Part shown: positions 5,993-24,071 of the stretch, in pieces
Layout of the letters: the number at the start of each line of letters is the position of its first letter
Position numbering within the stretch: position 1 is the first letter of the stretch
Virus record (IMG/VR): IMGVR_UViG_3300040751_001802
Span: 1-24,071 of that record
Length of the DNA: 24,071 bases
Strand: one strand, 5' to 3'
From: a virus
Notes under the pieces: model-generated
What the model was told of the DNA's origin: nothing
The model's database searches: none
What the model saw: only the letters and a program-made list of their open reading frames with translations
Program-made: the position numbers and the translations under genes

Positions 5993-6215
5993 GTATATTG
6001 TTCTTTTCTTTTTTATCTAACTGTGCTTGGCCCTGTTTAGCCCATCTACGTTCTTGTTCTGCATTTGCTTCAGACAACATAACGTTTAACTGCAATATTG
6101 CTTGATTATTGCCCGTAGTATAAAAGAATTTCATTCTTTTGTGTAAATTACTAATACGTTCAACTAAATCATCATCTTTTAGTTTAGATAAATCATCGCT
6201 TCTTGGATCATACAT
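5982..6215 (-). CDS. 77-aa charged helical protein
   Basis: Starts MYDPRSDDLSKLKDDDLVER; mostly helical and highly charged, without membrane segment or signal. It overlaps the RpiB-like gene by 8 nt, so translation is probably coupled. AGGGA lies about 11 nt upstream. The central part, with a helix breaker at TTGNNQ between two amphipathic helices, suggests a small helical hairpin. Function unknown. Confidence 0.65.
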   Translation of the reverse strand: MYDPRSDDLSKLKDDDLVERISNLHKRMKFFYTTGNNQAILQLNVMLSEANAEQERRWAKQGQAQLDKKEKNNILDN

Positions 6216-6669
6216 TTCGCAATTTCCCTAATCTTTTTTCGTGTCTGCCGCCTTCAAACTTTGTATTAAAAAATGCTTTAACAATGTCTTTAGCATCTGT
6301 AATTTTAACAAAGTCTGCTCCTAAACATAATACATTTATATTGTTATGTTTTCGAGCCATTACTGCGTCTTTCACTGTTCTACAATTTGCCGCTCTGATA
6401 TGAGGATATCTGTTTGCCGCAATAGTTACACCAAACCCAGAACCGCATACTAGAATACCATGTGTTTGATGCTCCATATTATTTGCTACTTCACTTACAA
6501 TATCTGGGTAATCAACAGATTTATCATCATATGCTCCTACGTCGATTAACACACTAATGTTAAATTTTGTAGGCTCTTCATCTGTATTGGGTGCTACATA
6601 ATCATATATATAGTTTTTAAGTTTTATACCTCTGTGGTCACTTCCGATTGCTAAACTAACGTCTTCCAT
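6208..6669 (-). CDS. rpiB: RpiB/LacAB-type sugar-phosphate isomerase (ribose-5-phosphate isomerase B)
   Basis: 153 aa, the usual RpiB size. Motifs in order: IGSDHRG (8-14, phosphate/substrate site Asp-His), DYPD (53-56), GILVCGSGFG (71-80) with the catalytic Cys75, ARKHNNINVLCLGA with His108 (equivalent to the ring-opening His), and FEGGRHEKRL near the C-terminus. The position after CG is Ser77 where E. coli RpiB has Thr. RpiB interconverts ribulose-5-phosphate and ribose-5-phosphate. In this transcript the PRPP synthetase upstream would use the product. ATG 6669 has AAGGAG upstream, with a spacing of 11 nt that contains a TAAATACTATT late-like string. LacAB-type substrate preference cannot be excluded. 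Confidence 0.88.
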   Translation of the reverse strand: MEDVSLAIGSDHRGIKLKNYIYDYVAPNTDEEPTKFNISVLIDVGAYDDKSVDYPDIVSEVANNMEHQTHGILVCGSGFGVTIAANRYPHIRAANCRTVKDAVMARKHNNINVLCLGADFVKITDAKDIVKAFFNTKFEGGRHEKRLGKLRNV

Positions 6670-6686: not shown

Positions 6687-7925
6687 TTAAAAGTAACTTT
6701 GCATTCCACCTTCGCGAACTGTATCTAGTGTTAAGCAGTGTAAACCACCATCCCAGAAGTTTCTGTGTCTAAAACGACAGTAAATAGGCTCAATTTTATG
6801 TTCTTTTAATTTATCATGTACTTGCTTTTGGTAATTCATAGATAAAATTGTATTTTCATTTACACTTAACATATTAACTTCAAATTGTGTTTCTTCCGAA
6901 TACCCTGTCCAAGTGTTTAACCATTCTTCAATAAACTTTGTATATACTGGATTATCTTTAGCATCAGGAGTCCACCATTTACCATCAGTAAGATGCTTTT
7001 GTTGTTGCCAACTACCATATTCTGATTCCATAGTTTTTTCTGTACCTGTACGAATTTTTAAAACGTCCCAGCCCGGGCAAGTTTCTTTAAAAGTATCTTT
7101 ATCTAGATAAGAAGCACAAATAACAAGTCCAGGTTTAGGTAAATTAAATGTTGCATCACTGTGACCACCGTTAGCAGTATTTGTACGTTTAAATTGTGGA
7201 TACAATTCTATCATTGCATCATCTAAATTTTCAACATCTTTAGTATCTAATATTAAAGTGTCGCCAACTCTAGTTACAGTTGGTGCCCAAAATCCCCAAG
7301 TATAACCCATTGCTCTTATGTAATCGGGATCGTCAGCGAATGTTCCTTCTGGAATATTTACATCAAACCATTCTGCTTTATATGTAGTATCATATTCAAC
7401 ATATTCTTTTCTAGGTCTTAATGGTCCTCTAAATTTTCTTTTTTTTGGATCAACTGTTAATCTCATATCCAAACAATCCGGATTAATAAAGTTTTGTCCG
7501 CTTGATGTCATAAATTTGTGAAACTCTGGATATTGTTGTGTTAACAATATTTTATTACCCATTGTTATTAAGTAATCTCTAGGCATTAATGCAGGTTTAG
7601 GTATTCCGTTAAATGCTGATTTTTGTTCTTCGTAGTATTCCATAATATTAGAATACCCAACACCGTGTGTTGTTGTTTCTGCCAATGTGGCGGCTTGAGT
7701 CAAATTAGGGTGTAAACGTACCACATCAACACCTAAACTTTCAAGTGTTTTTTGTATGTTGTCTAAATCTTCATGTGTTTCGTATAAAAGTTTTTGTAAT
7801 AAATCTCTTAATTTATGGTCTTTAAGGTCTTCGAAAAACTCTGGTTCAAATACATTACCAAGTACAACTTGTTTTAACGGATCCCAACCGTTCCATGCAT
7901 TTGCTTCATTGATTCTATACGTCAT
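6687..7925 (-). CDS. amidinotransferase family protein (glycine amidinotransferase-like)
   Basis: 412 aa, close to AGAT/GATM length. The arginine-amidinotransferase fold is indicated by the N-terminal EANAWNGWDPLKQVVLGN, the catalytic histidine box GGHSDATFNLPKPG (His255; AGAT has HIDATFN), and the C-terminal WDGGLHCLTLDTVREGG with nucleophile Cys397 (AGAT: GGGFHC-T-D). These enzymes move an amidino group from arginine to an amine such as glycine or an inosamine. Odd point: where AGAT has FDAADFIRAG with the catalytic Asp, this protein reads FWAPTVTRVG (212-221), so that acid may be missing or moved. It lies 1 nt after the GNAT-like gene, behind a late-type promoter at 8371-8381. Substrate unknown. 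Confidence 0.82.
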   Translation of the reverse strand: MTYRINEANAWNGWDPLKQVVLGNVFEPEFFEDLKDHKLRDLLQKLLYETHEDLDNIQKTLESLGVDVVRLHPNLTQAATLAETTTHGVGYSNIMEYYEEQKSAFNGIPKPALMPRDYLITMGNKILLTQQYPEFHKFMTSSGQNFINPDCLDMRLTVDPKKRKFRGPLRPRKEYVEYDTTYKAEWFDVNIPEGTFADDPDYIRAMGYTWGFWAPTVTRVGDTLILDTKDVENLDDAMIELYPQFKRTNTANGGHSDATFNLPKPGLVICASYLDKDTFKETCPGWDVLKIRTGTEKTMESEYGSWQQQKHLTDGKWWTPDAKDNPVYTKFIEEWLNTWTGYSEETQFEVNMLSVNENTILSMNYQKQVHDKLKEHKIEPIYCRFRHRNFWDGGLHCLTLDTVREGGMQSYF

Positions 7926-7926
7926 A

Positions 7927-8349
7927 TTATAGAGGTCCTAATACCTCAAATCCATCTATCTGTTTTTTATAAGAATGTGCTTCGCCAAGATACATAAACT
8001 TGTAGCCTTTTTCTTTATACATAGCACATTCACTTCTTAAACTTTTTATGCCTAAATGCAGTTTAGGATTTTTATAGTCCCATGCAAATTGGAGTGCTTC
8101 GACATTCTCTTTATCTTGTATTATGATAATACTAAATGCAACAAGTTTGTCATTGTCGTAGTAACCTATTACATCATTATTCTTGTAATCACTATCAAAT
8201 ATAGGCATTACACTTTTAAACTTTTTATACCTACAGTACTTTGTGTAAATTTTATTTAATTCTGTTATATCGGGAGACTTGATTATCTTGTAATTTGGTA
8301 ACGTTGTGTAATTACATTTAGATAAGTCTACTCGAGCGTAAATGGCCAT
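7927..8349 (-). CDS. GNAT / arginyltransferase-C-like acyltransferase
   Basis: 140 aa. The sequence has the strand-helix rhythm of a GNAT acyltransferase: DNDKLVAFSIIII strand pair, ALQFAWDYKNPKLHLGIKSL, a helix RSECAMYKEKG, and YKFMYLGEAHSYKKQ, which resembles the C-terminal Y-LGY segment of Ate1/FemX-like enzymes. No canonical acetyl-CoA P-loop (R/Q-x-x-G-x-G/A) is evident, so the assignment is tentative. It is translated immediately before the amidinotransferase (1-nt gap), suggesting that the two act on the same small molecule or peptide. ATG 8349 has TAGGAG about 9 nt upstream. Confidence 0.55.
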   Translation of the reverse strand: MAIYARVDLSKCNYTTLPNYKIIKSPDITELNKIYTKYCRYKKFKSVMPIFDSDYKNNDVIGYYDNDKLVAFSIIIIQDKENVEALQFAWDYKNPKLHLGIKSLRSECAMYKEKGYKFMYLGEAHSYKKQIDGFEVLGPL

Positions 8350-8381: not shown

Positions 8382-8862
8382 GGCTTTTGAATCTCCAAGA
8401 GACTACATCATCATAGTTTTCTTGTTTCCAATTTTCGTAGTACCCTTGTTTTTGTAACATTTTACTTGCATTATTAAGTTTACTTAATCTTTGAACTAAT
8501 ATTAGTATTGCACTACCAAAATTCATCTTAACACCATTTAACATCTCAAAATCATTAGGATGATCTTCTAGTGCTACAATATCTTTTTTCATAGCCTCTT
8601 CATTAAAGTCTTCAACAAGTTTGGCTAATTCCATTGGTGTCATTTCTGAGGTTCTTGCATAAACAACCACAACTTCATATTTTTCATTCCAATTATCTAC
8701 AAGGTCTTCTAGTGTAGAAACTGTATTGTCTCTATTTACTTCCTTGTATCTAATTTTATCTGTTAACATTGCCTGTTTGGCAAATGGGCATGGAACGTGT
8801 CCAATAGTTTCGTTATGTGTTGAAACGAATTCTTCTATCCATGTTTTAATTTTTTCAATCAA
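8377..8862 (-). CDS. 161-aa unknown protein with TTG start
   Basis: The start codon is TTG (8862), overlapping the MazG stop as TTGA. GAAGG lies about 7 nt upstream and no in-frame ATG exists near it. Visible features are GHVPCPFAKQA (residues 21-31), a strand YEVVVVYAR (62-70), then DHPNDFEMLNGVKMNFGSAI and a C-terminal helix ending GYYENW. The CPFA box and following layout recall DUF1415-like proteins, but weakly. Translational coupling to mazG suggests a role near nucleotide metabolism (inference). No known catalytic motif. Confidence 0.7.
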   Translation of the reverse strand: MIEKIKTWIEEFVSTHNETIGHVPCPFAKQAMLTDKIRYKEVNRDNTVSTLEDLVDNWNEKYEVVVVYARTSEMTPMELAKLVEDFNEEAMKKDIVALEDHPNDFEMLNGVKMNFGSAILILVQRLSKLNNASKMLQKQGYYENWKQENYDDVVSWRFKSQ

Positions 8863-9266
8863 AGGTCGCCTTCTTTACGATTCTCTGAATAGTGAACATC
8901 AAATTCTCCGCCCGGATAACGTGCTTTAAGTTTATTCACGTTTTCTGCTACTACTTCGTTAGGGTCAAGGCCCAGTGCCCTGCAACTATTAATCCAATAC
9001 CACATAATATCGCCAAGTTCTCGTTTAGCATGAAAGATAGTTTCATTATCAAGTGGTTTACCTTGAAATATACATTTTTTAACAATTTCAGCAAATTCAC
9101 CTCCTTCTGACGCAATACCAATTGAGCCGGTTAGTAGTAGTGCCATATTAACACCACTGTCTTTTTCTAGTTTCTCTAACTGTGCAGTTAGACCACCAGT
9201 TTCGTTACTTTGCAAAGAGGTAACCCTCTCTACGAATTCTTGATACTTATTCAAATCGACTTGCAT
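8859..9266 (-). CDS. mazG: MazG-like nucleotide pyrophosphohydrolase
   Basis: 135 aa single-domain MazG. The all-alpha NTP-PPase signature is present: GIASEGGEFAEIVKK (residues 50-64, E-x-x-E-type Mg ligands) and KRELGDIMWYW (about 81-91, E-x-x-D). MazG-type enzymes split (d)NTPs to NMP and pyrophosphate; phage versions are proposed to handle host (p)ppGpp or to recycle nucleotides. It is 3 nt downstream of prs and overlaps the next gene by 4 nt, so it is part of the prs operon. GGAG lies 7 nt before ATG 9266. Confidence 0.9.
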   Translation of the reverse strand: MQVDLNKYQEFVERVTSLQSNETGGLTAQLEKLEKDSGVNMALLLTGSIGIASEGGEFAEIVKKCIFQGKPLDNETIFHAKRELGDIMWYWINSCRALGLDPNEVVAENVNKLKARYPGGEFDVHYSENRKEGDL

Positions 9267-9269
9267 TTA

Positions 9270-10235
9270 TTACTCCGTTTTCATTAATGAGGTATTGAAT
9301 AATGAAGAAACACTTTCCTCATTTGTTATTCTTCTGATTGCTTCTCCAAAAAGAGCACCAGTTGATATTTGAATTGTTTTCTTACAGTTATCTGGACAAC
9401 GATTTTGAATAGAATCTGTAATAATTAAATGTTCAAGACAACTGTCTTCAACTTTTTGACAAGCACTATTTGTTAAAACACCGTGTGTAATATATGCCCT
9501 TACAGATAATGCTCCTTGTTCCATAATAACTTTTGCGGCATTACATAATGTACCTCCGCTGTCAATAATATCGTCTACTAATATTGCGTGTTTTCCTTCT
9601 ACGTCTCCAATAATTCCCATTACTTCGCTTTCGCCTGCTCTGGGTCTACGTTTGTCGACAATGGCAATATCACCATTAAACATTTCTGCAAATTTTCTTG
9701 CTCTTACAGTTCCACCTGCGTCCGGACTTACAAACACTGTATCTATATGATTGTTACCATACATATTAAGTCTACGTTTAATATCTTTAGCAAATACAAT
9801 TCTGCTTGTTAAGTCATCAACAGGAATATCAAAGAAGCCCTGTATCTGTCCTGCGTGTAAATCCATTGTAAGGATTCTATCTGCACCTGCTTTGGTAATT
9901 AAGTTTGCTACTAGTTTGGCAGTGATTGGTGTACGACTTGCACTTTTTCTATCTTGTCGTGCATATCCAAAATAAGGAATAACTGCGGTAATACGTTTGG
10001 CACTGCTACGTTTAGCGGCATCAATCATTACCATTAATTCCATTAAGTTATCATTAACTGGTGTACTTGTTGATTGTATAATAAAGACGTCTTCGCCCCG
10101 AACATTTTCTAAAAATTCTACACTACTTTCACCATCTGCAAAAGTTGAGATATTAGAAGGTACAATATTTGTAAAACAATGTTCGGAAACTGCATTAGCA
10201 AGTTCTAGGTTGCTATTTCCTGCGATGATTTTCAT
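9270..10235 (-). CDS. prs: ribose-phosphate pyrophosphokinase (PRPP synthetase)
   Basis: 321 aa, full length for bacterial Prs (about 315). It transfers pyrophosphate from ATP to ribose-5-phosphate to give PRPP, the precursor of nucleotides and NAD. Motifs: FADGESSVE (32-40), the ATP-binding flexible loop YARQDRKSASRTPI (91-104), MDLHAGQIQGFFDIPVD (124-140) and the PRPP-binding loop VDDIIDSGGTL (220-230). It is the first gene behind the promoter at 10264-10292, with GGAG 7 nt before ATG. Together with rpiB in the same transcript direction it can draw pentose phosphate carbon into nucleotides. Confidence 0.97.
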   Translation of the reverse strand: MKIIAGNSNLELANAVSEHCFTNIVPSNISTFADGESSVEFLENVRGEDVFIIQSTSTPVNDNLMELMVMIDAAKRSSAKRITAVIPYFGYARQDRKSASRTPITAKLVANLITKAGADRILTMDLHAGQIQGFFDIPVDDLTSRIVFAKDIKRRLNMYGNNHIDTVFVSPDAGGTVRARKFAEMFNGDIAIVDKRRPRAGESEVMGIIGDVEGKHAILVDDIIDSGGTLCNAAKVIMEQGALSVRAYITHGVLTNSACQKVEDSCLEHLIITDSIQNRCPDNCKKTIQISTGALFGEAIRRITNEESVSSLFNTSLMKTE

Positions 10236-15755: not shown

Positions 15756-16034
15756 ATGTATTTAGGATATACATTTATTAAGCAATGGCATCGACGTAAG
15801 GGCTTTGCAACTAAAAGAAGTTTGCAAGTTTACGCATTATTGTGTAATAACTGTCAAAGTTTATTCCTCAGAAGTTCGAAGGATATCAGTACATCTCGAT
15901 TGAACAAGTGGGTTAATCACTACTGCGGTTGTTGTGGTGATGTTTATAAACTTGCACAAAAAGACAGTGCATTACGAAAAAGGACATTAAAATATGATGC
16001 GAGTTCAACAGTACCTATTAGTCGTTTGCGTTAG
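15756..16034 (+). CDS. small zinc-ribbon protein
   Basis: 92 aa from ATG 15756. A longer reading from TTG 15696 would cross the late-type promoter and is rejected. Two CxxC knuckles are visible: LLCNNCQSLF (residues 29-38) and HYCGCCGDVY (about 55-64), separated by a basic SSKDISTSRLNKW linker, so it should bind one zinc ion. The C-terminus is basic. This layout is common in phage HNH-like or nucleic-acid-binding small proteins, but no HNH histidines are evident. Its 3' end overlaps the HtrA-like gene by 41 nt in another frame. Confidence 0.65.
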   Translation: MYLGYTFIKQWHRRKGFATKRSLQVYALLCNNCQSLFLRSSKDISTSRLNKWVNHYCGCCGDVYKLAQKDSALRKRTLKYDASSTVPISRLR

Positions 16035-17082
16035 CATAATCACTTATTTCGGTTTAACCGAAACTGCTTTCAGTGGATTAAAAAATATTGACAATAATTT
16101 AAAGTCAACTGTTTTTGTTTCTATTAAAAACGTAAAACCAGAAATAGATGAAACATCAGGTAATATGATTCCAGTACCTCCACCGGATCAAGGATCTGGT
16201 ATTGGTTCAGGTATTATTATGTCAAAAGAGGGACATATTATTACCAACTATCACGTTATCGAAAAAGGTAATACAATTTCAGTATGGATGTATGAAGACG
16301 AATCCATGACTGAATATAATGCAACTGTTGTTGGATTTGATATACTTTCTGACATTGCAATAATAAAAATTGACCTACCGGAGAATTATAATTATATTCC
16401 TATTAAGTGGGGCAAAGATCCTGACTTTGGAGAAGACATTTATGTCATCGGTCATCCGCAAGGTATGATTTGGAGTGTTAGTAAAGGTGTTATTAGCAAT
16501 CCAAAACGATTTGTGTCTTCGCCTTGGCAAAGACTAATACAATCAGATGCACTTATTATGCCAGGTAATAGTGGCGGACCATTGTTCGATGAACATGGCG
16601 ATTTAATAGGCATCAATACACTTATGATTCTATCTCGTGACCCGACTGCAAAGACACAAGCCTGGGCAATGAGCATTCATTTAGATGATGTGAGATGGGT
16701 TTACGACAGAATACTTTCGTACGGCAGAGTACGAAGACCTGCTTTAAACATTGAAGTTGATTTCGATGTTGATATGAAGAGGGTAAAAATAAAGGCCTCG
16801 CCTGAGAGTAATCTCTATGTTGCTGGAATGACAAGCGAATCTTACATTCTAGAAATTGATGGGATCCAGGTGCAAGAGTATGGTGATATTTTCGAATACT
16901 TAAAAACAAAGTTAGACGGAGAAATAGCCATAGTTAAGGTTGAAAATGTAGAATCCGGAGAAGTGTCAACTCATACGTTTGAGTTAGGTGATTGGGAGTC
17001 TTTAAGTAAGAAGAAGGAAGAAAAACTAGAAGTGGAACCAGTAGAACCGATAGAGCCGAAAGGAAATCATCCACACGATTAA
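15994..17082 (+). CDS. secreted trypsin-like serine protease of the HtrA/Deg family
   Basis: 362 aa. Residues 1-27 form a signal peptide or membrane anchor (MMRVQQYLLVVCVSIITYFG, then a TAFS cleavage region). The S1C catalytic triad is complete: His87 in TNYHVIE, Asp120 in DILSDIAII, Ser193 in PGNSGGPL. Residues about 230-330 look like a degenerate PDZ domain (YILEIDGIQVQEYGDI, then IVKVENVESGE). The tail is Pro/Glu-rich and ends in a His-rich NHPHD. HtrA proteases degrade or refold misfolded envelope proteins in the periplasm; a phage copy might protect the envelope or process virion or surface proteins (inference). AAGGA lies about 10 nt before ATG 15994. It converges directly on the Fe-S gene at 17083. 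Confidence 0.9.
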   Translation: MMRVQQYLLVVCVSIITYFGLTETAFSGLKNIDNNLKSTVFVSIKNVKPEIDETSGNMIPVPPPDQGSGIGSGIIMSKEGHIITNYHVIEKGNTISVWMYEDESMTEYNATVVGFDILSDIAIIKIDLPENYNYIPIKWGKDPDFGEDIYVIGHPQGMIWSVSKGVISNPKRFVSSPWQRLIQSDALIMPGNSGGPLFDEHGDLIGINTLMILSRDPTAKTQAWAMSIHLDDVRWVYDRILSYGRVRRPALNIEVDFDVDMKRVKIKASPESNLYVAGMTSESYILEIDGIQVQEYGDIFEYLKTKLDGEIAIVKVENVESGEVSTHTFELGDWESLSKKKEEKLEVEPVEPIEPKGNHPHD

Positions 17083-17421
17083 TTAAAATGCTACTGATTC
17101 TCCGCAACCACAAGAACTAGTTGCTTGGGGGTTTTCAATTACAATTTGGGAACCTCCAAAACTTTCTTTATAATCTATAGTTGTTCCCATAATATAGAAT
17201 AAACTAAACTTATCAATAATTAGATTTTTTTCTTCATCTAATTTAATAACTTCATCTTCGGGATTAATTTTATCCGTTTCAATGGAATCCCATTTATATT
17301 TAAAACCTGCACAACCTCCACCTTGTACACCAAAGTATACATTAGTTGCATTTTGTTTGTCTGCCGTTTTAATTAAGTAATTTCTAGCGGAATCTGTGAT
17401 AGTTGGTAACATACTCGTCAT
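17083..17421 (-). CDS. A-type Fe-S cluster carrier (IscA/ErpA/HesB family)
   Basis: 112 aa from ATG 17421. The ATG at 17433 directly abuts AGGAG and is too close to it, and ATG 17412 is a further alternative. The HesB signature is complete: the first ligand Cys37 in GGGCAGFKY and the C-terminal pair Cys104/Cys106 in SSCGCGESVAF. ITDSARNYL at the N-terminus and IDYKESFGGSQIVIENPQA before the Cys pair match the family. These proteins receive [2Fe-2S]/[4Fe-4S] clusters and hand them to apo-enzymes. It overlaps the SufT-like gene and is the last gene of the Fe-S trio; its stop abuts that of the converging protease gene. Confidence 0.92.
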   Translation of the reverse strand: MTSMLPTITDSARNYLIKTADKQNATNVYFGVQGGGCAGFKYKWDSIETDKINPEDEVIKLDEEKNLIIDKFSLFYIMGTTIDYKESFGGSQIVIENPQATSSCGCGESVAF

Positions 17422-17806
17422 CGTGATTATCATCTCCTAAATTTAATGTGAACTGTGCAATCTCACTCATTTGTGATGGATTAAATGTAGGTTCAAATGT
17501 CATTTGTACTTCTACTTTATTAATACCAGGCACTTTTAATAATGCTTGTTCTGTCCATATTGGCATTTCGCCTGCTACTGGACAAAAAGGACTTGTAAGT
17601 GTCATAACTGTTGTACAATTACCTTCTACAACATCACAATGATAAATTAATCCTAGTTCAAATATATTTATACTGATTTCTGGATCATATACTTCGCGAA
17701 GTTCTTTTTTAATATCTTCTTGCTTAACATTTGGGTCAGTTATTTTTAAATCAAAACTGCCTTCAGCATCTGGACTTCGATTGAAGTCTTTTATTTCTAC
17801 TTTCAT
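17384..17806 (-). CDS. SufT/MIP18-type (DUF59) Fe-S assembly factor
   Basis: 140 aa. The DUF59 core is clear: LREVYDPEISINIFELGLIY (37-55) with the DPE(I/L) and N-x-x-ELGL-Y signature, then MTLTSPFCPVAGEMP (68-82) with the conserved Cys75, and VPGINKVEVQMTFEPTFNP. The family includes SufT, PaaD and eukaryotic CIA2/MIP18, which help to deliver Fe-S clusters. An N-terminal extension of about 20 residues and an acidic C-terminal tail (DDNHDDEY) are additional. It starts inside the ferredoxin stop (ATGA overlap), so translation is coupled. Confidence 0.9.
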   Translation of the reverse strand: MKVEIKDFNRSPDAEGSFDLKITDPNVKQEDIKKELREVYDPEISINIFELGLIYHCDVVEGNCTTVMTLTSPFCPVAGEMPIWTEQALLKVPGINKVEVQMTFEPTFNPSQMSEIAQFTLNLGDDNHDDEYVTNYHRFR

Positions 17807-18090
17807 ATTCTAATTTTTACTTTCCCATCGGGTGCGTTATCTAAATCTAGTTGACATCCTAAACGACTGTTAGGTCTTCCTTCTGCGTGAAGCATATCTA
17901 ATTCTTCTTCACTTGGGTCTTTAAAAAATTCTTCTCCTTCAAGTACTGTACATATACATGAACCACAGGCACAAGATCCTCCGCAAGTTCCCCAATCGAT
18001 ATCATCGTATAGGGCAATCATTACATTATCTGTGCCTGTGTATTCTACTTGAATTGACTTGCCTTTATGTAAGGCTGTAAGTTTGGGCAT
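17803..18090 (-). CDS. [2Fe-2S] ferredoxin, adrenodoxin/Isc type
   Basis: 95 aa. The ligand pattern is C36-x5-C42-x2-C45 ... C79 (TCGGSCACGSC and RLGCQL), as in E. coli Fdx of the isc operon rather than the plant/cyanobacterial photosynthetic type. The acidic partner-binding helix (DPSEEELDML) follows the cluster loop. It carries electrons, for example for Fe-S cluster assembly. AAGG lies 7 nt upstream of ATG 18090. It is the first of three coupled Fe-S genes and is itself 3 nt downstream of a small membrane protein gene. Confidence 0.93.
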   Translation of the reverse strand: MPKLTALHKGKSIQVEYTGTDNVMIALYDDIDWGTCGGSCACGSCICTVLEGEEFFKDPSEEELDMLHAEGRPNSRLGCQLDLDNAPDGKVKIRI

Positions 18091-20639: not shown

Positions 20640-21266
20640 TTACTCTAATGGTAAAATAAATTCGCCCTTGTTGTGTTTATCTATTACATCATTATATGTT
20701 TCTCCGTTTGTTCGAAAACGTAAAACAACTCTGTAATCTTTCATTTCTTCAACACTGTGAATAACTTTACCTGTCACAAGTGTTGGGTGTTCTGTACTGT
20801 AATAAACTTTATAAATCTCTTTACCAGGATTACGGAAGTCATCTCCTTCTAAAAATGTTAAAGGTTCGCCTCCATCATCAGGTATAATAGGTAACATAAT
20901 GCTTAATTCTACTTCTTGGTCAATATGTGGTACAAATGCAAACCCTGGTTCGTATGCTAGTATCTGTACATCTGTTACACTTAACGGAACTTTAAAATTA
21001 AACTGTTTAATAAATTTTTGTATAACAGGATATTCAATTAGTTCTTTACCTTCAAAGTTAGGAGCATATACTTGTCTAAATTTATCAGTAAGTGTTTTAC
21101 GATAAGGATTATCTTTGTTATACTTCTTTTTAAATTCGTTCCAAGGTAAATGACAACTTTCGTCAAATTGATTATAGAAATCTAATAATTCTTGTTTATC
21201 CCAAACAACACCTTCTAATACACAATGATGTTCGGCTTGTCCTCCGTGATAAATTACACTATCCAT
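20640..21266 (-). CDS. Fe(II)/2-oxoglutarate-dependent oxygenase-like protein 1
   Basis: 208 aa from ATG 21266; a TTG two codons upstream (21272, with AAAGG 5 nt before it) is an alternative. The double-stranded beta-helix metal site is visible: His114-x-Asp116 in FVPHIDQEV, distal His170 in GKVIHSVEE and the 2-oxoglutarate Arg183 in YRVVLRFRT. ELSIMLPIIPDDGGEPLTFL between them fits the core strands. It should hydroxylate or oxidise a substrate using O2 and 2-oxoglutarate. It is the last gene of an overlapping cluster with a methyltransferase and a second oxygenase. Substrate unknown. Confidence 0.8.
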   Translation of the reverse strand: MDSVIYHGGQAEHHCVLEGVVWDKQELLDFYNQFDESCHLPWNEFKKKYNKDNPYRKTLTDKFRQVYAPNFEGKELIEYPVIQKFIKQFNFKVPLSVTDVQILAYEPGFAFVPHIDQEVELSIMLPIIPDDGGEPLTFLEGDDFRNPGKEIYKVYYSTEHPTLVTGKVIHSVEEMKDYRVVLRFRTNGETYNDVIDKHNKGEFILPLE

Positions 21267-21790
21267 TCCCAATAAAGCCTTTCTTGTCCTCTATTACCAA
21301 CATTTTCTCTATTCTCCCAAATGTTTTTGTAAATGGTTCTAGGTCCATCTACAAATGTAAATCCATATTCTTTTGCAAAGGTTTTTGCTTTCTTTTCATT
21401 CCAGGGATAATAAAGTTCATGCTTATGTTCACACAACACTCTAAAAAATATATGCCCGCCGGGCTTTGTTATTCTTTTTACTTCATTGAGTTGTGTTTTA
21501 ATTAATTCTTCACTGCCAAAGTTTATACTACCTAAAGCAAGTACAACATCTGCACTATTATCATTGAATGGCAAGTCTTCGATTAAACCATTTATGTCTG
21601 CTTCTGTAGTTGCTATATCTAATCCAACTAAATTGTTAATCCATTTTTTATATAAGTTTGCTCCACAGCCTAAGTCTATTACTGCATCCGGTTTTAATGC
21701 ATTTATCTTATCTATCATAGGTGTAGCACAATCGGGCCATCGATGAATGTCTGTACTACCTTGTTGAAAGATATCTTTAAGTTGTTGCAT
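21254..21790 (-). CDS. class I SAM-dependent methyltransferase
   Basis: 178 aa, type 11 methyltransferase. SAM-binding motif I AVIDLGCGAN (36-45), acidic residue of motif II in VGLDIA (Asp58), then IEDLPFNDNSADVVLALGSI (70-89, motif IV region) and RITKPGGHIFFRVL (106-119). There is no DNA-methyltransferase DPPY/NPPY or PC motif, so a small molecule, sugar or protein is the more likely substrate. It overlaps both neighbours (about 13-14 nt), and no ribosome site is visible, so translation is coupled. Confidence 0.87.
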   Translation of the reverse strand: MQQLKDIFQQGSTDIHRWPDCATPMIDKINALKPDAVIDLGCGANLYKKWINNLVGLDIATTEADINGLIEDLPFNDNSADVVLALGSINFGSEELIKTQLNEVKRITKPGGHIFFRVLCEHKHELYYPWNEKKAKTFAKEYGFTFVDGPRTIYKNIWENRENVGNRGQERLYWEWIV

Positions 21791-22565
21791 TAGATAAAAA
21801 TTCTTTAGTTTTTTCTGTTACTACGCCAGTTATGTTTAACACGGGTCTTGGTTTATGCCCATAATTACAAGTTCCATGTGGAACATCTCTCCAGGGCCAT
21901 GTAATACAATCACCACGTTTCCATTTTATTAATAGATTGCCTAATTGAAATATTTGTCCTTGATGTTGGTCATCTAAAAATATCATTGTTCTCATTACTT
22001 TACGTTGATCCAAATCTCCTTTATCAGCATTATCATATTCTTGTCTAGATTTTTTAAGTACTCCACCAAAATTATCTAAATGCCAATAAAAACATTGCCC
22101 AGGTTTTTGTACATCAAATTTTACTACACCTGGTTTTTCAAACCCAAATGCATCAACAATATATTGTAAACTATCTTTTAGTTTAGGGTGCAAAGTTCTA
22201 TTCGCAATAGTGTATCCACCATCGATATCATATCCCCATTTTTTAAAGTCGTTTTCTTCCCAATCGTTTGTTGTGTCTTTTCTAGTTTCTTTACGAAACT
22301 TAAAATCTGCTGGTTTAGTTTCCTTACTTAATTCTGCTACTGCTTCGTCCCAGTCGCCGCCAAAGTTTCCAACAGGTATTACTGGTGGACAATCCCCATC
22401 TAGTTCTGCAATATCATCTCTTGATTCGTCGAAGTGATATCTACTTGTTGCTTTACAAAAATCATAAAGACTATTATAGCCTTCTTTATCAACAGGAGGT
22501 TTTGTTTTTAATTTTTCCCACATCAGCAATGGGTCTCTACTAAATTCTAAATTATAAAATTGCAT
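21777..22565 (-). CDS. Fe(II)/2-oxoglutarate-dependent oxygenase-like protein 2
   Basis: 262 aa from ATG 22565, with GGAG 8 nt upstream and a 1-nt TAATG overlap with the PP-loop gene; the longer reading to 22610 is rejected. Metal ligands: His162-x-Asp164 in CFYWHLDNFGG, His230 in WRDVPHGTCNYG, and Arg240 in HKPRPVLNITG, the aspartyl/asparaginyl-hydroxylase-like arrangement. The N-terminal 120 residues are a separate, tryptophan-rich region (FSRDPLLMWEKL, CPPVIPVGNFGGDWDEAV). It differs in sequence from oxygenase 1, so this is not a recent duplication. The substrate is unknown. Confidence 0.8.
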   Translation of the reverse strand: MQFYNLEFSRDPLLMWEKLKTKPPVDKEGYNSLYDFCKATSRYHFDESRDDIAELDGDCPPVIPVGNFGGDWDEAVAELSKETKPADFKFRKETRKDTTNDWEENDFKKWGYDIDGGYTIANRTLHPKLKDSLQYIVDAFGFEKPGVVKFDVQKPGQCFYWHLDNFGGVLKKSRQEYDNADKGDLDQRKVMRTMIFLDDQHQGQIFQLGNLLIKWKRGDCITWPWRDVPHGTCNYGHKPRPVLNITGVVTEKTKEFLSNATT

Positions 22566-23152
22566 TAATATTCTCCAAAGGCCCAGTGCCTTTCTTTGCA
22601 CCACCAACATTCTTTACAAGGTCTCGGTGGTTGTTTTGCTTCACAACTTATTGTTAATGGAAATAAAGAATCTAATATACCATATTCTTTATAAAGTTTA
22701 GCAACACCTTTTTTATCTAAATCTGCTAAAGGTCTATACATAGTTAACCCATTTGGTGTGGTAACTACTTTTTCCATTTGTTTGTTGCGTGATTGGTCTT
22801 CACCTTCTCCAATGTATTCGGAAGGGTTTCGAGTAAAGCCATTTATAAAGCAATCTAAATTGTGATAATCAAAAAATTGTTTTCTTAACTTGTCTCTATT
22901 TGCTTTGCCTTCTGCTCTATCTTTAAAAGTATATATTGCATATGCTTTAATATTATTTAGTTTTAATTCATTTAGTATATTATTACAATTATCTAAATGA
23001 TATTGACCGTCATCTAATCTAGATCCCACATACAAATAAAACTCACTGTCTGGGTGTGTTTTGGAAAGTTGATATAACATAAGTGTACTATCAGCACCTC
23101 CACTAAACAGAATACCTATACGTTTATGTTGTGGTATTACACTCGTTTCCAT
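22565..23152 (-). CDS. QueC-like PP-loop ATPase
   Basis: 195 aa. The N-terminal PP-loop ILFSGGADSTLML (SGGADS at 17-22) binds ATP for adenylation. The C-terminus has four cysteines spaced C170-x8-C179-x2-C182-x2-C185 (in SCEAKQPPRPCKECWWC), the same spacing as the zinc site of bacterial QueC, followed by R-x-WAFG. QueC makes preQ0 (7-cyano-7-deazaguanine) from CDG; phage relatives take part in 7-deazaguanine DNA modification. The middle (HNLDCFINGFTRNPSEYIGEG) lacks clear QueC identity, so a different amidating or thiolating PP-loop enzyme is possible. No queD, queE, folE or dpdA is visible in the window. Confidence 0.72.
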   Translation of the reverse strand: METSVIPQHKRIGILFSGGADSTLMLYQLSKTHPDSEFYLYVGSRLDDGQYHLDNCNNILNELKLNNIKAYAIYTFKDRAEGKANRDKLRKQFFDYHNLDCFINGFTRNPSEYIGEGEDQSRNKQMEKVVTTPNGLTMYRPLADLDKKGVAKLYKEYGILDSLFPLTISCEAKQPPRPCKECWWCKERHWAFGEY

Positions 23153-24071
23153 AAATCTGCTCTTGAATCATTTTTCATTTGTTCTAATGCTTGTTTAGTT
23201 GTTATTCCATTAAACGTATTACAACAATGATCCGATCCATATACTAACAATTCTGGATTATATTTTACTAAAGTTTCAATAAATCTTTTTGCATTTTGAT
23301 GACTTTGTTCACTTGTTTTATTAACATTTGCTGGTTGTCTTTTTAATGCACCATTATACCAAAATACACTAGAATCGTATGCTTGATGTTCTGACAATAT
23401 TCTGTTGAATGCATTAGCATCTCCTAGGTTACAAACATAATAATTGTGTTTACATTTTTGATATTTTTTCCAATGTTCTTGCCATTGACTTTTTGTCCAT
23501 TTTGTATCCATATGATCCAAAACATGATGCGTAGGTCTATGCCCACGTCTAAATTGTTTTCCATTAAAGACTGTTAATAACGGAAATTTATCATATAAAT
23601 GGTCTAACCAAGATAGATAATCTTCCCCGTCCCAGTGTTCTATTGTGTATTTTCTTACTGCTAGACTGCTTTTGCTTATATCAATATGGTTTACAATAGT
23701 GTTGTTATCGAATCCAGCATCTTGTAGAATATAGTTAATATAGAAGCCAGAACTCACTGTCATTGCCCATTTAACGGGTTTATTAAGCCCATACACGGGC
23801 TTTGGTATCTCATTGTGTACAACGTAAGCCAGGTTTGAATTCTTTAAAACCATGTCTATTGCACTATCATGGGTTTCACTAAATGTGTCTGCATTTGTTG
23901 GGTTTACGTGGCTGAAGTTATATGGTAGTTTAATTTCTGTAGTTCCTACACCTGTTGGGCAATAAATCATAGAAGGTCCAACGGTATTCCATTTGAATTT
24001 ACCAATTTGGTGTTCTATAACTCTTTGGAAATATGAATAAGGAAATATAGTTCCAGGCTTAACTGCAACAG
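23137..24071 (-). CDS. unidentified protein, 5' end beyond the window
   Basis: 310 residues are visible. The reading frame stays open from position 23970 (ATG, without a good ribosome site) to the window edge at 24069, so the start is probably outside. Visible features: WAMTVSSGFYINYILQDAG, then TIVNHIDISKSSLAVRKY, which could be a Rossmann-like glycine/acidic pattern; HWDGEDYLSWLDHLY; a His-rich RRGHRPTHHVLDHMD stretch; CNLGDANAFNRILSE; and LLVYGSDHCCN near the C-terminus. It is first in the overlapping cluster (16-nt overlap with the PP-loop gene). No family recognised. Confidence 0.72.
   Translation of the reverse strand, partial: VAVKPGTIFPYSYFQRVIEHQIGKFKWNTVGPSMIYCPTGVGTTEIKLPYNFSHVNPTNADTFSETHDSAIDMVLKNSNLAYVVHNEIPKPVYGLNKPVKWAMTVSSGFYINYILQDAGFDNNTIVNHIDISKSSLAVRKYTIEHWDGEDYLSWLDHLYDKFPLLTVFNGKQFRRGHRPTHHVLDHMDTKWTKSQWQEHWKKYQKCKHNYYVCNLGDANAFNRILSEHQAYDSSVFWYNGALKRQPANVNKTSEQSHQNAKRFIETLVKYNPELLVYGSDHCCNTFNGITTKQALEQMKNDSRADLWKRV

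Follow-up and report, generated by a model that had tools for sequence, protein, structure and literature searches.

The window analysed here is the whole of a stretch of 24,071 nucleotides (IMGVR_UViG_3300040751_001802), whose source is a marine T4-like virus of bacteria. Positions 20640-24071 hold five genes on the minus strand, each overlapping the next head to tail by 1-16 nt (Table 1). In the order of transcription they are G1, G2 (PP-loop), G3 (oxygenase A), G4 (methyltransferase) and G5 (oxygenase B), with overlaps of 16 nt for G1/G2, 1 nt (TAATG) for G2/G3, 14 nt for G3/G4 and 13 nt for G4/G5. The genes are intact, and comparison of the window with three relatives indicated purifying selection on all five (dN/dS 0.01-0.26). 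An overlapping, one-directional cluster in which two oxygenases flank a methyltransferase, with a PP-loop gene ahead of them, had been proposed in a sequence-only reading, and the order G2-G3-G4-G5, kept in relatives, agrees with that proposal.

Table 1. Genes of the cluster and their positions in the window
Gene	Product	Position	Strand	Basis or remark
G1	371-aa protein in relatives, methyltransferase-like C-terminal fold	23137..24071	-	310 aa visible; 5' end cut at window end, stop at 23137
G2	PP-loop ATP pyrophosphatase, QueC superfamily, zinc site; predicted ATP-dependent amide-type ligase	22565..23152	-	Pfam QueC
G3	Predicted Fe(II)/2OG oxygenase A, remote relative of Asp_Arg_Hydrox (PF05118)	21777..22565	-	Conserved HxD...H...R
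G4	SAM methyltransferase, small-molecule type (Methyltransf_11)	21254..21790	-	Pfam
G5	Fe(II)/2OG oxygenase B	20640..21266	-	AF2 fold; ATG start 21266, alternative TTG at 21272

The assembly of the window terminates within G1. The extension past position 24071 that had been recommended was obtained through relatives, where the full-length gene encodes 371 aa (L002:6901-8016) and the set still comprises five genes. In that locus 165 nt separate G1 from the end of the closest ORF upstream, the following ORF downstream begins about 160 nt past G5, and no gene overlaps either end of the five-gene set in relatives. Three tRNA genes lie just downstream of the cluster.

The PP-loop protein G2 and its partner G1

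G2 (195 aa) matched Pfam QueC (PF06508) with 38.2 bits (cut-off 22), which places it in the QueC superfamily, and it carries a SGGADS PP-loop and the QueC-type zinc site C-x8-C-x2-C-x2-C (CEAKQPPRPCKECWWC) that the sequence-only reading had pointed out. Matches to PF06508 were also present in the contigs of relatives. Among 48 distinct phage members of the family (G2 and 47 relatives), SGGxDS was found in 45 and the four-cysteine zinc motif, with a variable first spacing, in all. A scan of the genome collection for the PP-loop protein returned two matches only, both on short metagenome-bin contigs.

The motifs defining preQ0 synthesis (PMC13329287) were essentially absent from this family, with YxQxHxxE and YPDC in 0/48 distinct members each and VPxRN in 1/48, a partial exception. 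Against NCBIfam QueC (TIGR00364) G2 reached 28.6 bits, the cut-off being 150.3. Judged by its substrate motifs and by this score, G2 lacks the hallmarks of a canonical QueC (preQ0 synthase). The motifs tested for Cap9, YxDC and the pattern [YF]xQx[HR]xxE, were each found in 0/48 family members, and the loci that were read showed no recognisable CD-NTase gene; the Cap9 structure 9nto was a weak match in the G2 profile search (E 0.13). G2 resembles QueC and the Cap9/QatC ligases in its PP-loop, zinc spacing and Pfam score, but differs from them in its substrate motifs, and its context consists of oxygenase, methyltransferase and glycosyltransferase genes, whereas that of Cap9/QatC is CBASS or Qat. 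Singleton QueC-like proteins outside a complete deazaguanine DNA pathway have been described in Bacillus phage SP-15 and Salmonella phage SFP10 and are suspected to be a functionally unrelated subgroup of N-type ATP pyrophosphatases (PMC6884629). G2, likened to them by description and not by sequence, is also a phage-encoded QueC-like protein, but its clade is distinguished by a C-x2-C-x-W-C signature (43/48) and by the partner G1. Radical SAM genes were found near 19/48 G2 relatives and a glycosyltransferase near 10/48, and in one of the relatives (L091) the PP-loop protein and a phage glycosyltransferase form a fusion; no glycosyltransferase was recognised near the window's own cluster.

The overlap between G1 and G2 measures 16-19 nt in four distinct lineages. 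In one locus (L064) both are apparently fused in a single 559-aa ORF, with no ATG start left at the junction for a separate PP-loop protein, although the junction coincides with a run of five A (six in L063), where a one-base assembly error is possible.

G1 had been listed as an unknown, and no profile of Pfam, PHROG or NCBIfam matched it. Its AF2 model (pLDDT 80), however, gave the C-terminal domain (model residues 132-354) a class I SAM-methyltransferase-like fold, with VIA Z values of 8-10 over 156-207 residues against NNMT/PNMT and 6ulo, the glycine-rich motif I not being recognisable. We consider this domain methyltransferase-like with moderate confidence. For the N-terminal domain, a glycosyltransferase with a lost DxD was suggested by eye and received no support from hhalign against the phage glycosyltransferase family. 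Comparison of G1 with the G4 methyltransferase profile yielded no convincing alignment.

Two oxygenases and a small-molecule type methyltransferase

G3 presents the ligand set H-x-D...PH...R, whose H, D, H and R are invariant in 53/53 distinct homologues. It resembled Asp_Arg_Hydrox (PF05118) with an E value of 0.0065 and 16.8 bits, below the cut-off of 22.6, and just 1/15 G3-family members matched this profile at all. A homologue in a sequenced phage, S-SCSM2R, is annotated as a 2OG-Fe(II) oxygenase, and profile comparison of G3 with G5 gave a weak match around HxD. From its conserved residues, the predicted identity of G3 as an Fe(II)/2OG oxygenase checks out. PDB sequence profiles provided no meaningful match for G3 or G5. 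The AF2 model of G5 (pLDDT 91, pTM 0.88) showed a double-stranded beta-helix fold, and among the matches listed in the structure comparison (VIA) nearly all were Fe(II)/2OG oxygenases, with Z of 10.8-12.1. Its H114, D116, H170 and R179 (HxD...H...R) are invariant, and both oxygenases retain the intact ligand sets ascribed to them in the sequence-only reading.

Fe(II)/2OG oxygenases of T4-like marine phages (phrog_61) are described as being of unknown function (PMC3037559, PMC11561400). G3 had no PHROG match and G5 matched phrog_61 weakly (E 0.022). The gene partners of G3 and G5 are conserved, and such partners are not reported for marine phage 2OG oxygenases in excerpts of those two papers (PMC3037559, PMC11561400).

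G4 matched Methyltransf_11 with 39.1 bits (cut-off 21.2) and no DNA-methyltransferase profile in Pfam, PHROG or NCBIfam, in line with its earlier description as a methyltransferase devoid of DNA-methyltransferase motifs. A G4-type gene adjoins the G3 homologue in 20 distinct loci, oxygenase first and methyltransferase second. Within 4 kb of the G3 homologue, a methyltransferase was present in 39/53 loci compared with 0/46 control loci (p 7e-16), the controls being phage PP-loop neighbourhoods and not random loci, and the distinct homologues still being related by descent. Sulfotransferase-like genes were found near 38/53 oxygenase A homologues; this label comes from one sub-threshold Pfam match plus motifs, and a PDB profile search with the family gave weak matches, the best being polynucleotide kinase (E 0.13). 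In one locus (L035), tandem oxygenase-methyltransferase pairs are followed by a sulfotransferase-like gene, which fits hydroxylate-then-cap chemistry.

Recurrence of the genes in related viruses

The same five genes in identical order were found in three other distinct viruses (3300028844_004047, 3300025137_000023 and 3300027704_000009, the last nearly identical to 3300027668_000008), and relatives retain this order even where G1 identity falls to 71%. Outside this close clade the genes occur in pairs only, never all five together. G1+G2, G3+G4, G1+G3 and G1+G5 recur, side by side or overlapping, in viruses that are more distant, and lineages carry the modules in shuffled arrangements. Frequent neighbours are tail-fibre, sulfotransferase-like, acyl-adenylate and radical-SAM genes, and in several loci (L060-L062, L031/L032) cluster genes lie directly upstream of a tail-fibre-like gene. 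Among 50,697 phage records, neither a DNA match to the cluster nor a tblastn relative of G1, G2 or G5 was detected.

The sequence-only reading had deduced a shared pathway from overlap and had named failure to co-occur in related phages as evidence against it; the five genes do co-occur in close relatives. Recurring pairs, the conserved five-gene order and the apparent G1-G2 fusion support a shared pathway better than overlap alone. Beyond the close clade only pairs were found, so the five do not make up one fixed pathway, nor is a single pathway proven.

Candidate products of the gene set

The occurrence of these genes together, whole or in part, in related viruses suggests an undescribed phage-made chemical modification. 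We regard as evenly balanced the proposition that they form an operon-like tailoring set, with a decorated sugar or small molecule, rather than a DNA base, as its most likely product. G2 would adenylate a carboxylate (or amide) with ATP for joining to an amine or ammonia, and would be partnered physically or metabolically with the methyltransferase-like G1. G3 and G5 would hydroxylate C-H bonds with Fe(II), O2 and 2-oxoglutarate, and G4 would methylate, plausibly at the hydroxyl made by G3. The product could be made for the virion or host-surface glycan, or be released. We infer a shared substrate, this reaction order and a glycan or small-molecule target. More tentatively, and with somewhat less than even confidence, the genes may represent an undescribed modular biosynthetic system of marine T4-like phages, in which a phage-specific QueC-superfamily ligase would function as one unit with G1, a new methyltransferase-like partner, alongside hydroxylate-then-methylate/sulfate modules, yielding a chemically new virion/host glycan decoration or a secreted small molecule.

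A post-translational modification, in which G2 would conjugate a carboxylate to the N-terminus or a side chain of a phage or host protein and the oxygenases would hydroxylate residues of the nearby tail fibre or of a host protein, seems rather unlikely to us. Cap9 conjugates CDG onto its CD-NTase, and both Cap9 and QatC are QueC-family enzymes able to modify proteins (PMC11996544, PMC13279940), which provides a precedent; G2 is Cap9-sized and weakly matched 9nto (E 0.13), tail-fibre-like genes abut the cluster in some lineages, and G3 is distant kin of the Asp/Asn hydroxylase family. However, the CDG motifs kept by Cap9 are absent from G2, and an unsystematic look identified no partner that is conserved and exposes an N-terminal glycine. 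Prolyl hydroxylases are among the many 2OG folds that G5 is similar to, but such likeness does not give the substrate.

The sequence-only reading had named a hypermodified nucleobase, a surface glycan or a small molecule as targets. The latter two fit the context better, and the hypermodified nucleobase is the least supported of the three: a TGT/DpdA-type transglycosylase (PF01702) was found in 0/7 records, which may be fragments, while the control matched 14/14 genomes. Still, relatives carry FolE/QueE and sometimes QueD, by which a 7-deazaguanine link is possible; G2 would then be a strongly diverged QueC using CDG from phage FolE/QueD/QueE, and the other proteins would decorate the deazaguanine base in phage DNA or tRNA. 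FolE was present in 10/12 records of the group, QueD adjoins a QueE-like gene in one contig (L004), G2 was the sole PF06508 protein found in five contigs (L002-L005 and L063), its zinc spacing equals that of canonical QueC, and tRNA genes lie nearby. We nevertheless hold this explanation to be improbable, given the near-absence of preQ0 motifs in the G2 family (0/48, 0/48 and 1/48; PMC13329287), the occurrence of QueE in lineages that have G1 and lack G2 (contigs of L058, L060 and L061) and its non-detection in many lineages with G2, several records being fragments.

Equally doubtful is a gathering of independent auxiliary metabolic genes in a variable slot, adjacency reflecting cassette turnover: shuffled modules and the commonness of 2OG oxygenases in marine phages (PMC3037559, PMC11561400) agree with it, but the specific pairing of oxygenase A with a methyltransferase (39/53 against 0/46), the G1-G2 overlap kept in four distinct lineages, with one apparently fused ORF, and the retained five-gene order speak against it.

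Marine phage 2OG oxygenases are many, of unknown purpose and mostly listed singly as auxiliary metabolic genes. Here they come with conserved partners, namely a methyltransferase, sulfotransferase-like and acyl-adenylate enzymes and a QueC-like ligase, so that what was an open list of orphans becomes a pathway that can be tested. A phage branch is also added to the QueC superfamily, whose members make preQ0 or modify immune proteins and are of current interest in anti-phage defence.

The tailoring set proposed above can be compared with an aminocyclitol/glycan-type cluster in Synechococcus phage S-SCSM2R (PQ898602), the one sequenced phage with a G3 relative, to which 39% of G3 aligns. This cluster contains no relative of G1, G2 or G5; the neighbours of its oxygenase are glycosyltransferases, an aminohydroxybenzoate-synthase-like gene, an inosamine amidinotransferase and a radical SAM gene. 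Both share a G3-type oxygenase, and the window also carries, elsewhere, an amidinotransferase-like gene (6687-7925).

Organization and recurrence of the five genes

ORF reading of the window revealed five overlapping ORFs, with neighbour overlaps of 16 (G1/G2), 1 (G2/G3), 14 (G3/G4) and 13 nt (G4/G5), which confirmed the run of same-direction, mutually overlapping genes described in the sequence-only reading. Three tRNA genes lie immediately downstream of the cluster. The source record is a virus contig of 24,071 bases, assigned to a T4-like phage because a clamp-loader protein and tail/baseplate-type proteins are encoded elsewhere in the window.

Positions of the cluster and of other genes discussed
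Feature	Position	Strand	Description
Cluster	20640-24071	minus	five ORFs
G1		minus	first transcribed; truncated at window end
G2		minus	PP-loop protein, 195 aa; second transcribed
G3		minus	oxygenase A, 262 aa; third transcribed
G4		minus	methyltransferase, 178 aa; fourth transcribed
G5		minus	oxygenase B, 208 aa; fifth transcribed
RpiB-like (by eye)	6208-6669	minus	
Amidinotransferase-like	6687-7925	minus	
tRNA-dependent transferase-like	7927-8349		ATE_C, E 3.8e-6
MazG-like (by eye)	8859-9266		
PRPP synthetase	9270-10235	minus	phrog_619
Trypsin-like protease	15994-17082	plus	phrog_9683
Fe-S-type genes (by eye)	17083-18090	minus	three overlapping small genes
QueD and QueE-like	L278:3779-5139		related viral locus

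The full length of G1, 371 aa, was obtained from the close relative L002 (3300028844_004047). There, 165 nt separate G1 from the end of the nearest upstream ORF and about 160 nt lie between G5 and the start of the next one, which makes these five genes the whole set. Two further viruses carry all five genes in unchanged order: 3300025137_000023, and 3300027704_000009 / 3300027668_000008, a pair of contigs that behave as one virus. Values of dN/dS between the window and its five-gene relatives were 0.01-0.26 for all five genes, and therefore each protein is kept by selection.

A lack of co-occurrence in related phages had been set beforehand as refuting; the genes do co-occur, in a modular pattern, all five being found together in the close clade and never beyond it, where pairs recur. 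The G1 and G2 reading frames share 16-19 nt in each of four distinct lineages, and in L064 they read as a single 559-aa ORF, a candidate fusion that may be an assembly error since the junction falls at an A5 run that is A6 in L063. A G4-type methyltransferase directly follows the G3 homologue in 20 distinct loci, and a methyltransferase was located within 4 kb of 39 of the 53 distinct G3 homologues, compared to 0/46 control loci that came out of the PP-loop search (p 7e-16). The gene after G1 is G3 in L031/L032 but G5 in L061/L062, and each of these pairs stands directly upstream of a tail-fibre-like gene.

G2 and the 7-deazaguanine question

G2 matched Pfam QueC with 38.2 bits (cut-off 22) and carries SGGADS and C-x8-C-x2-C-x2-C, as expected from its earlier description as a PP-loop ATPase with a QueC-type zinc site. 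Its profile matched QueC, ThiI and, weakly, Cap9 (the QueC-like enzyme of type IV CBASS) in the PDB. The catalytic signature of preQ0-forming QueC further includes YxQxHxxE, VPxRN and YPDC (PMC13329287), present in 0, 1 and 0 of 48 distinct G2-family members, respectively, whereas the PP-loop was conserved in 45/48 and the four cysteines in 48/48. Judged by these motifs, G2 belongs to the QueC superfamily and is not a canonical QueC; probably, it is not a CDG-binding enzyme of Cap9 type either. Its fold suggests ATP-dependent carboxyl activation followed by ligation to an amine. Tandem G2-family gene pairs, mostly overlapping by 4-25 nt, were observed in L085, L089, L099, L100, L126 and L138, which suggests heterodimers or two successive ligations.

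A link of the cluster to CDG/7-deazaguanine chemistry is a rival explanation. FolE was detected in 10/12 related records and QueE-like genes in 15/41, the L004 contig has QueD beside a QueE-like gene, and the contigs of L002-L005 and L063 hold no PF06508 protein other than G2. However, a search of 7 records detected no TGT/DpdA-type protein, and we do not consider this link the best explanation because G2 lacks the CDG motifs and FolE/QueE are also present in lineages with G1 but without G2. In L278 and L144, QueD lies beside a QueE-like protein whose CxxxCxxC is apparently interrupted (CNLQCNGFGQ), with another Cys some tens of residues further on; in other lineages FolE is directly upstream of QueE.

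Oxygenases, methyltransferase, G1 and the proposed pathway

The two Fe(II)/2OG oxygenases with intact HxD...H...R sets, also noted earlier, were borne out. G3 gave a sub-threshold match to Asp_Arg_Hydrox, with no better family match, and its iron ligands H, D and H and the 2OG-binding R were invariant in 53/53 distinct homologues. G5 matched no Pfam family; its predicted model (pLDDT 91) matched almost exclusively Fe(II)/2OG oxygenases (Z 10.8-12.1), and its catalytic residues are invariant. These folds give no substrate identity. G4 is a Methyltransf_11 protein. For G1, previously labelled unknown, structure comparison provides moderate evidence that the C-terminal domain (132-354) is methyltransferase-like, resembling class I enzymes of NNMT/PNMT type (Z 8-9) and a Leptospira protein (Z 10.1), with no sequence-profile support and no recognisable motif I; the label still applies to the N-terminal domain.

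Around the modules in other viruses, proteins labelled sulfotransferase-like from a below-cut-off match (Sulfotransfer_3, E 2.6e-4) were found near 38/53 G3 homologues, and class-I glutamine amidotransferase and tricarboxylate-transporter genes recur. Locus L035 carries two tandem oxygenase-methyltransferase pairs and then a sulfotransferase-like gene, an arrangement that hydroxylation followed by capping of the new hydroxyl would predict. L006 and L063 share an operon of GNAT-like (by eye), AMP-binding (Pfam 61 bits) and sulfotransferase-like proteins with G1 and G2. Across the broader G2 family, 19/48 members have a radical SAM enzyme nearby and 10/48 a phage glycosyltransferase, and there is a single PP-loop-glycosyltransferase fusion (L091). 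The sole G3 relative among sequenced phages, in Synechococcus phage S-SCSM2R, is inside a glycosyltransferase/aminocyclitol-type cluster. The phage-borne tricarboxylate-transporter genes, TctA (Pfam 296 bits) and TctC-like solute-binding proteins (by eye), repeatedly adjoin the oxygenase-methyltransferase-sulfotransferase module, as in L035, L051, L216 and other G3 loci; TctC-like genes were counted at 31/53.

From fold and residues we propose that G2 would activate and amidate a carboxylate-bearing precursor, that G3 and G5 would hydroxylate it, and that G4 would methylate, capping a hydroxyl; G1 would be the partner of G2 and may itself be a methyltransferase. We infer the order, the shared substrate and the target, for which a sugar or a small molecule is the likeliest candidate. 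Each enzyme kind is already known in phages, 2OG oxygenases (PMC3037559, PMC11561400) and QueC-like proteins as singletons (PMC6884629), and bacterial defence has QueC-like protein ligases (PMC11996544, PMC13279940). A literature search of incomplete coverage returned no description of the five-gene cluster or of G2's QueC-like clade.

Other genes in the window

The C-terminal part of the amidinotransferase-like protein matched SxtG, HsvA, AGAT and StrB1 (PDB, best E 6e-6), and the tRNA-dependent transferase-like ORF is transcribed before it. The RpiB-like and PRPP synthetase genes, near the MazG-like gene, constitute a possible phage route to PRPP. By eye, the three Fe-S-type genes are IscA/HesB-like, SufT/DUF59-like and 2Fe-2S ferredoxin-like, and the relative L277 encodes SufE and NifU_N together with several radical SAM enzymes; therefore, these phages may supply Fe-S clusters to their own radical SAM enzymes. 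The protease gene is a long plus-strand gene with opposite GC skew, placed mid-way in a mostly minus-strand window.
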